A stretch of 64,000 nucleotides of DNA from NCBI RefSeq assembly GCF_900101865.1, contig NZ_FNAH01000003.1:1-64000 (forward strand), given 5' to 3'. Position numbers and translations under genes: made by a program. This document shows, piece after piece, positions 8,217 through 22,209 of this stretch. Within the stretch, counting starts at the first letter, position 1. Each line of letters starts with the position of its first letter. The DNA is from Paracoccus isoporae. Lineage in GTDB: Bacteria > Pseudomonadota > Alphaproteobacteria > Rhodobacterales > Rhodobacteraceae. Under the pieces are notes generated by a model. That model searched no databases and was not told where the DNA came from. It saw only the letters and a list, made by a program, of their open reading frames with translations.

Positions 8217-8231
8217 TTAACAATCCCTTAA
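8217..8231 (-). promoter_or_regulatory. CtrA-type binding site upstream of fliC
   Basis: TTAA at 8217-8220, seven bases, TTAA at 8228-8231: an exact match to the full CtrA consensus TTAA-N7-TTAA. It lies about 106-120 bp upstream of the flagellin start. CtrA control of flagellar genes is well established in Rhodobacterales. TTAA is rare in this GC-rich DNA, so the match is unlikely to be chance. Confidence 0.75.
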
Positions 8232-17935: not shown

Positions 17936-18640
17936 ATGGCACGCACCGACCGGCTGATGAGACTGATGGACGCGCTGCGCCGCCTGCCCGCCCCGGTCAC
18001 CGCCGCGCGGCTGGCGGAGGAAACCGGCGTCAGCCCGCGCCAGCTTTACCGCGACATCGCGACATTGCGGGCGGGCGGCGCGCTGATCGACGGCGAGGCG
18101 GGGCTGGGTTACCGGCTGATCGAGGATGGCGCGCTGCCGCCGCAAAGCTTTTCACGGCTGGAGATCGAGGCGTTGCAACTGGCCGTGGGCGCCCTGCCCC
18201 GGATCGGGGATGCCGCCCTGATCGAGGCCGCCAACACCGCGCTTTCACGGATCGCCGCTACCCTGCCCGAGCCGCAGGTCCAGCACCTCATGCATTCGGT
18301 GATGCGCAGCTTCGGGCCGCAAAGCACGCGCGCGGAGCCGTCCGTCGACATGGCGCTGATCCGCCGCGCCTGCTGGGCGGAGGATGAGTTGTCGATCCGC
18401 TATCGCGACCTGCAGGACCGGGACACAGAGCGGGTGATCCGCCCGCTCGGCCTGTCGCTGTCCGAGCATTCCATGATGTTGCTGGGTTGGTGCCTGCTGC
18501 GCGAGGATTTCCGGATCTTTCACTGCAACCGGATCCTATCTGTCGAATGCACCGGGCAGAGTTTCCGTCCGCATCGCGTCCGCCTGCTGCGCGATTACGT
18601 GGCGGCGCGGCGCGAATGCGACGCCGCACCGCCGATGTGA
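17936..18640 (+). CDS. YafY-family HTH/WYL transcriptional regulator
   Basis: A 234-residue regulator. The N-terminus is a DeoR-type winged helix (LMDALRRLPAPVTAARLAEE, GVSPRQLYRDIATL), and the C-terminal half is a WYL ligand-sensing domain (LSIRYRDLQDRDTERVIRPL then WCLLREDFRIFHCNRI). It is divergent from the GST gene, so a local regulator of that gene is the natural inference. The effector is unknown; WYL domains commonly sense nucleotides or other small ligands. Confidence 0.9.
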   Translation: MARTDRLMRLMDALRRLPAPVTAARLAEETGVSPRQLYRDIATLRAGGALIDGEAGLGYRLIEDGALPPQSFSRLEIEALQLAVGALPRIGDAALIEAANTALSRIAATLPEPQVQHLMHSVMRSFGPQSTRAEPSVDMALIRRACWAEDELSIRYRDLQDRDTERVIRPLGLSLSEHSMMLLGWCLLREDFRIFHCNRILSVECTGQSFRPHRVRLLRDYVAARRECDAAPPM

Positions 18641-18642
18641 AA

Positions 18643-18672
18643 CGGGGCCGCGCGATCGCTCGCACGGCCCCG
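18643..18672. terminator. bidirectional hairpin between convergent genes
   Basis: CGGGGCCG (18643-18650) pairs with CGGCCCCG (18665-18672), a perfect 8-bp stem whose loop contains the palindrome GCGATCGC. It sits 2 bp after the regulator stop and 21 bp before the end of the convergent barrel gene. There is no T tract. Confidence 0.6.
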
Positions 18673-18692
18673 CGAAATCACCGATCGGCAGA

Positions 18693-19439
18693 TCAGAACT
18701 GGTAGTTCACGCCCAGCTTGATCTGGTGCCAGTCGGGCGTCGCTTCGGTGGTGCGGTCATTCACGTCGCTCAGCGTCTTCTTGTCGTAACGCTGGTATTC
18801 CCACTCGCCCGTCATCGACCATTTGTCGCTGAATCGCCGCTCGACGCCGAGGCCGACGATGAAACCGTTCGTGGTCTCGCCGTCATCCTTGATCGACACC
18901 GCGCCCGCGGCACCCGCAGTTCCGGTGACGGCATAGTCGAAATCGGCGCGCGCGATGCCGGAGATGCCGTAAAACAGCGTATTCCCGGCCTGGTTCAGCA
19001 GACCGGTCTTGAAGCGCAGCGCGAGGACGCTGTTCATCTCCACATCAGCGGTATAGCCGCCGGAGCTGAGCTTGTCGCTGACCGATCCGGCGTCATACCC
19101 CAGCTCGGCCCCGATCACCCAGTTGCGCTCGCCCCATAGCTGCTGGGTGCGATAGCCCGCGCGCAGCCCGTAATTCGCACCGCTGAGCTTCATCTTGCCG
19201 AGCGAGGTATAGAGACGGGTCTGGCCCTGGCTGATGCCGACCACGTCATCGCCGCTGAAGCCGTAACCGAGCGTGGCACCGCCATAGGCACCTGACCAGT
19301 CAAAGCCCGCATTCACGTCGTCAACGACCACCACCTCGGGGGCGGCACCCCCGACCGGAGCGGTATAGCCGCCGGCACAGACCGAAGTCGCAGCACAGAT
19401 CCCTGCTGCCGCGGCCAGATTCACAAACGTCATTTTCAT
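18693..19439 (-). CDS. outer-membrane beta-barrel protein
   Basis: A 248-residue secreted protein with a signal peptide (MKMTFVNLAAAAGICAATSV, cleaved near CAGG) and a mature part of alternating beta strands ending in the outer-membrane targeting pattern IKLGVNYQF with terminal Phe. DWSGAYGGATLGYGFSGDD and similar Gly/aromatic strands are typical of small OmpA-like/Opa-like barrels of alphaproteobacteria. Role unknown, perhaps structural. ATG 19439 follows TGGAG. A perfect CtrA-type site lies about 86-100 bp upstream. The gene is convergent with the YafY-type regulator. Confidence 0.85.
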   Translation of the reverse strand: MKMTFVNLAAAAGICAATSVCAGGYTAPVGGAAPEVVVVDDVNAGFDWSGAYGGATLGYGFSGDDVVGISQGQTRLYTSLGKMKLSGANYGLRAGYRTQQLWGERNWVIGAELGYDAGSVSDKLSSGGYTADVEMNSVLALRFKTGLLNQAGNTLFYGISGIARADFDYAVTGTAGAAGAVSIKDDGETTNGFIVGLGVERRFSDKWSMTGEWEYQRYDKKTLSDVNDRTTEATPDWHQIKLGVNYQF

Positions 19440-19524
19440 GCACAACTCCACAAGCAGAAGGGAAATTCCCCCGGTGAACATTCCCGTACAGAATATCGAG
19501 CCGGCGACACCGCGACAATCTATC

Positions 19525-19539
19525 TTAACGATAGGTTAA
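19525..19539 (-). promoter_or_regulatory. CtrA-type binding site upstream of the barrel gene
   Basis: TTAA (19525-19528), seven bases, TTAA (19536-19539). On the minus strand it reads TTAACCTATCGTTAA, including the preferred TTAACC half. It is an exact full-site match in an AT-richer 277-bp intergenic region, and the nearest downstream start on that strand is the barrel gene at 19439. Confidence 0.7.
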
Positions 19540-19758
19540 AGAGTTCAGTGCATTAGCGCCGGCAGTGAGGCAGGATTACCACAGAATTTCGTCCACAGGT
19601 TGAACTTTTCTGCAAAATTCGCGCATGATGGAAAGGCCAGGATCAGTTTCAATAGTTAACTTTTTGCATCATGAGCCGCCGCGTCCGCCCGCGTGATCCG
19701 GCCGCACAGCGAGGCCCTGCTGGGTGACAGGGCAGTGATCTCCCCATGCCGCGGCCGG

Positions 19759-22209
<2,451 letters not shown>

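Follow-up and report, generated by a model that had tools for sequence, protein, structure and literature searches.

The exact TTAA-N7-TTAA site between gyrB and the gene of a small outer-membrane barrel protein is best read, from the sequence of this genome and of its relatives, as a CtrA box peculiar to this lineage that was added to a promoter independent of CtrA, an explanation that can be given roughly an even chance of being correct. A sigma-70-type core promoter (TTGTCG-N17-TATTCT) would express the barrel protein, which is found throughout the genus, without CtrA. The box would have been gained by this lineage immediately before the -35 element, with its centre approximately 49 bp before the predicted transcription start (approximately 19483), and phosphorylated CtrA may bind there and adjust, most probably raise, transcription of the barrel gene in the phase of the cell cycle or of growth during which CtrA is active.

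The site has the sequence TTAACGATAGGTTAA on the forward strand at 19525-19539, which is TTAACCTATCGTTAA when read towards the barrel gene on the minus strand. It is located in the gap of 319 bp between gyrB (stop codon at 19759) and the barrel gene, and since the barrel ATG is at 19439, the box is 86-100 bp upstream (Table 1). The initial annotation described it as the second perfect site of its kind, in front of a barrel gene, and both the position and the match proved accurate: it is one of two exact matches in the window (the whole stretch of 64,000 nucleotides that was analysed), where 100 shuffles predict 0.00. The longer form TTAA-N7-TTAAC, quoted for the Caulobacter CtrA site in a section of PMC4046655, is not matched by the barrel site, in which the next base is G; this is the commonest base at the position after the second TTAA (46% of 54 comM and cckA sites). 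The gap is longer by approximately 140 bp than in G064, G008 and G078 (174-182 bp), with the extra stretch in 19600-19758. No Rfam model matched 18500-20500 above its gathering score. A terminator or other inverted repeat was rejected as the feature: the search gave a single terminator-like hit (versus 0.4 expected), and the inverted repeats of the gap lie elsewhere.

Table 1. Features of the gyrB-barrel gap and its flanking genes (window coordinates).
Feature	Coordinates	Strand	Basis
CtrA-type box TTAACCTATCGTTAA (TTAA-N7-TTAA)	19525..19539	-	sequence; consensus fit P = 0.028; not conserved in relatives
Dyad CTATC-GTTAA-GATAG overlapping the box	19520..19534		3/104 gaps; post hoc
-35-like hexamer TTGTCG	19513..19518	-	TTGnnG at matching place here and in the four genomes closest by barrel match
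-10-like hexamer TATTCT, 17 bp from -35	19490..19495	-	TTGnnn-N17-TAnnnT in 4/5 gaps
Shine-Dalgarno GGAG	19446..19449	-	sequence
Outer-membrane beta-barrel protein, 248 aa	18693..19439	-	Pfam PF13505 OMP_b-brl
gyrB, same-strand upstream neighbour of the barrel gene	19759..22194	-	present at 104/125 fetched barrel or paralogue loci

The genome (G000, 3.52 Mb; the window is positions 1-64000 of its contig C16) is presumably Paracoccus-like, since its carB region shares 84% identity with Paracoccus records. It encodes ctrA (NF045991, 403.3 bits versus a cut-off of 350) and has 14 exact matches to TTAA-N7-TTAA, spread over 12 loci. Other spacings between the two tetramers occur on average 1.7-2.3 times (1.7 for spacers of 1 to 16 when N6 and N7 are set aside, 14 in all), and these other spacers are a better control than shuffles because shuffles ignore local AT-richness. 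The backwards pattern AATT-N7-AATT is a less clear control, being found 9 times in this genome versus 14 for the forward pattern; across 125 genus genomes the totals are 1413 and 1717, with the forward pattern higher in 82, equal in 6 and lower in 37. As a class, N7 sites exceed the spacer control, and the backwards control is modestly lower than N7. The main rival explanation is that two TTAA tetramers lie 7 bp apart by chance in a promoter spacer where CtrA is inactive, which is quite possible but falls on the improbable side of even. In its favour, roughly 1.7-2.3 of the 14 sites would be accidental by the spacer control and more by the backwards control; against it, the N7 excess remains without the three loci that have conserved sites (11 sites at 9 loci; Poisson probability 0.0007 or less for 9), nine leftover loci of which flagellin and the barrel were covered by conservation tests.

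The genes beside N7 sites encode a CckA-like hybrid kinase (its best NCBIfam matches are CckA models, with scores below their cut-offs), a YifB-family protein that we take to be ComM, a PAS protein that is presumably DivL-like, flagellin, three Hint_2 proteins and a family-2 glycosyltransferase; other neighbours have no link to CtrA, among them genes that by eye encode a tRNA ligase and an aldehyde dehydrogenase. CtrA control of cckA and divL, and of comM in Dinoroseobacter, is described in parts of PMC4046655, PMC2877005 and PMC6473078, the first and last of which link all three genes to CtrA in Dinoroseobacter. Given the spacer tally, the neighbouring genes, the presence of ctrA and this published control, the motif class is very probably real in this genome. 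Three of the 12 loci are upstream of Hint_2 (PF13403) genes (L042:3076, L043:3061 and L045:3023, on C18 and C19), possibly a shared CtrA-linked family. There are also two triple-TTAA arrays that each contain two overlapping N7 sites (L040:3055-3080 and L041:3026-3051), one before a gene that is followed by a glycosyltransferase-like gene and the other beside an aldehyde dehydrogenase-like gene (by eye). TTAA-N6-TTAA is likewise in genome-wide excess (11 versus a mean of 1.7 when spacers 6 and 7 are excluded), in agreement with the functional 6-bp CtrA sites of Cereibacter described in part of PMC6180460.

The barrel protein passes the curated cut-off of PF13505 (54.1 bits versus 28.7), and matches with E <= 1e-5 exist in 98 of 101 genomes of the genus and in 23 of an additional 24, a few of them weak or partial. 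The gyrB-linked barrel is near-universal in the genus, and outside it six of the 147 sampled family genomes have a match (E <= 1e-12). A sequence search of the PDB returned no relative at E <= 1, the related-locus search confirmed no close relative, and the single-sequence structure model is unusable (mean pLDDT 34.5).

Conservation of the site was assessed in 125 fetched barrel or paralogue loci, from which lower-scoring matches were in part left out; the main count comprises the 104 loci with a gyrB end, of the remaining 21, 19 were scanned as a separate set (L115 across just 85 nt), the contig-end fragments L067 and L070 were left out, and the genome itself is counted in all conservation figures. 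The exact N7 site is present in three of the 104 gyrB-linked gaps (this genome, G085 and G009), compared with a total of three gaps for 24 other spacers between 0 and 24 (N6 one, N16 two). It is absent from the remaining 101 gaps, from all 19 other barrel or paralogue loci and from all three loci fetched outside the genus (of six matching genomes), the very outcome, absence upstream of orthologues, that the initial annotation had named as refuting its claim. Among the nearest relatives, the site is missing from G064, G008 and G078; at the place of the left TTAA, the four nearest by barrel match have either CCAA (G064, which keeps the right half) or no match. The half-site of G064 implies that such a site can appear or vanish by few changes, which favours the chance explanation, as do the 101 gaps without it when compared to control genes that keep theirs. 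With an exact site sought within 300 bp upstream, 27/28 comM, 27/28 cckA and 23/28 PAS-protein genes have one, and each of the three controls reaches 28/28 with one mismatch (two of 30 genomes were skipped for each because the match had no start); the barrel gene in the 30-genome set has 3/30 exact and 4/30 with one mismatch. The sites kept at these control genes imply that the test detects kept CtrA-type sites where they are present. Because three of 104 gaps compare so poorly with the controls, the barrel gene does not belong to the shared regulon, and its site is outside the conserved CtrA regulon of the genus. The two further exact sites in the matching gap of other species (G085 and G009) nevertheless argue against chance.

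The other site in the window (8217-8231) is 106-120 bp upstream of the start of flagellin and was found in one of 26 flagellin upstream regions of the 30-genome set, its own. Flagellin was found in 26 of the 30 genomes, in many only by its ends, so its orthology is sure only for G078, G008, G064 and G089 (66-71% identical), whose upstream regions lack the site. As the flagellin site is equally unshared, unshared sites cannot all count as functional.

Outside the TTAA tetramers, the fit of the barrel site was evaluated with a matrix of seven spacer positions and two flanking bases made from 74 sites of relatives, this genome being left out. Read towards the gene, the barrel site reaches 3.8, a score that 2.8% of random ones attain (P = 0.028), versus -4.5 in the other orientation; both the fit and the orientation argue against a chance origin. 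The fraction of random ones reaching the score by the same matrix is 21% for the flagellin site and 62% for the site at this genome's PAS-protein gene, and the barrel sites of G085 and G009 fit less well (P = 0.148 and 0.051). By a full matrix from 54 comM and cckA sites, the barrel site scores 21.9, inside the control range (median 23.4). Over the gaps, full-matrix scores of at least 18.3 are found in 3/104 versus 0 in shuffles, and scores of at least 9.8 in eight versus a mean of 1.5; compared to spacer-shifted matrices the excess at N7 is small (4 versus 0-1 at the highest threshold, 9 versus 0-7 at the lowest). Judged by its letters, the barrel site is a good CtrA box. The initial assignment of the barrel gene to the CtrA regulon stands only in part: the encoded ctrA, the sites at CtrA-type genes and the consensus fit and orientation speak for it, but membership in a shared regulon does not survive the 101 gaps without a site.

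In 50 of 54 promoters of comM and cckA, the second TTAA is followed at 11 nt (+/-1) by a -10-like triplet, 35 times at exactly 11, a rule derived from those same 54 promoters, with a background of 3.6% per position. The barrel site has GCG at this place and so does not resemble a CtrA-activated promoter of the comM/cckA type, and this lack of the canonical -10 spacing is a further point for chance; four of the 14 N7 sites of this genome have the triplet. What follows the box is instead TTGTCG, beginning 6 nt after it, and TATTCT after a further 17 bp (19518-19490). The elements at the matching place in the nearest relatives are TTGCTG and TATCGT (G064), TTGCCG and TATCGT (G078), TTGCTG and TATTCT (G105), and TTGCTG with TATAGC (G008). 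TTGnnn-N17-TAnnnT is found in four of the five gaps of this genome and its four nearest relatives, a number reached by none of 3000 shuffled sets, although the count followed its discovery in the alignment and shuffles take no account of common descent. Over all gaps it is found in 15 of 104, versus a mean of 6 (range 2-10) in shuffles, which makes the putative promoter characteristic of the near clade and not of the genus as a whole. With eight of 12 consensus bases it falls short of the nine required by a generic promoter scan, which consequently did not report it and reported TTGAAA-N16-CATCAT at 19652-19625; because of this, the argument for the putative promoter is its sharing with relatives. 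A sigma-70-like promoter of the form TTGnnG-N17-TAT is predicted to be common to this genome and its four nearest relatives.

A second rival explanation is that the dyad CTRTC-N5/6-GAYAG, which abuts the -35 element, is the operator of some other regulator and that the TTAA in its loop mimics a CtrA box. The dyad is at the matching place in G000, G078 and G089 with arms that co-vary (CTATC/GATAG versus CTGTC/GACAG, N5/6), and it occurs in 3/104 gaps versus 0-1/104 in 20 shuffles. It is absent, however, from the near relatives G064, G008 and G105; it was spotted by eye and counted post hoc on the same sequences; some 5-bp dyad occurs in 15% of 33-nt gap segments; and an operator here would be compatible with a CtrA box on top. 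Having been noticed by eye and being missing in three near relatives, the dyad is kept as a rival only, and an improbable one.

In Caulobacter, CtrA binds the origin of replication, and the gap is in a dnaN-recF-gyrB-barrel neighbourhood according to Pfam matches (the gene matching SMC_N is presumably recF, from its match and its place), which would suit a CtrA site that controls replication near the origin instead of the barrel gene. This is very improbable: the gap has a single site, the whole 64-kb window has no exact TTWTNCACA DnaA box (exact boxes being what was searched), and the site is not kept in relatives where the barrel gene also follows gyrB. The absence of an exact DnaA box and the single site led to rejection of an origin-linked site.

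The lineage-specific CtrA box on a CtrA-independent promoter is favoured by the presence of ctrA, the N7 excess, the sites at the cckA-like, comM, PAS-protein, flagellin and Hint genes, the consensus fit and the sites of G085 and G009. It is opposed by the rarity of the site among the gaps, the GCG in place of a -10-like triplet, the near relatives without the site and the modest backwards control, and also by the shared promoter-like element, which needs no CtrA. In a broader and rather unlikely version, the lineage has rewired its CtrA network, recruiting flagellin (site at 8217) and the gyrB-linked barrel 11 kb away, with a box added to a promoter already in place, so that a surface protein found across the genus and otherwise independent of CtrA came under control of the cell cycle or motility phase, and with independent gains in G085 and G009. 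The coupling to motility or gene-transfer-agent development that had been suggested for the barrel found no support, as nothing tested links the barrel to either. The case separates a kept genus core of CtrA-type sites (at cckA-like, comM and PAS-protein genes) from sites of one or a few species. Should the barrel site be functional, it would illustrate clearly, on a small scale, how a regulator acquires a target whose promoter already exists; should it be inactive, it warns against assigning a gene to the CtrA regulon on the strength of a perfect TTAA-N7-TTAA match.

The Omp25 protein is itself a small OMP_b-brl barrel. In Brucella, CtrA reportedly binds in front of omp25 and influences the abundance of Omp25 (in part of PMC10538546, citing Francis et al. 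2017), so a link from CtrA to a barrel gene, of which the initial annotation was not aware, is already on record and is not unheard of; barrels are not mentioned in the searched parts of PMC4158056 and PMC7232146. The present case is like omp25 in having CtrA, here predicted, upstream of an alphaproteobacterial outer-membrane protein gene, a likeness by description. It is unlike omp25 in that the region bound there is -389 to -337 by experiment (same part of PMC10538546), whereas the box here is a prediction much closer to the gene. The barrel site resembles the full-site CtrA promoters of Rhodobacterales (cckA, divL, comM) in having TTAA-N7-TTAA, for which the distal part is mostly TTAACC, directed towards the gene and within approximately 100 bp of the match start. 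It differs from these promoters, whose sites 23-27 of the 28 genus members retain, by its presence in so few gaps, and from comM and cckA by lacking the -10-like triplet that mostly follows their sites at 11 nt. At the fla2 promoters of Cereibacter sphaeroides, as described in sections of PMC6180460, more than one architecture works, as does a 6-bp spacing. The barrel gene is like these in having a CtrA site near a sigma-70-type promoter, here a putative one, and unlike them in that theirs are flagellar genes with the CtrA element near -35, whereas the box here is upstream of a recognisable -35 element.
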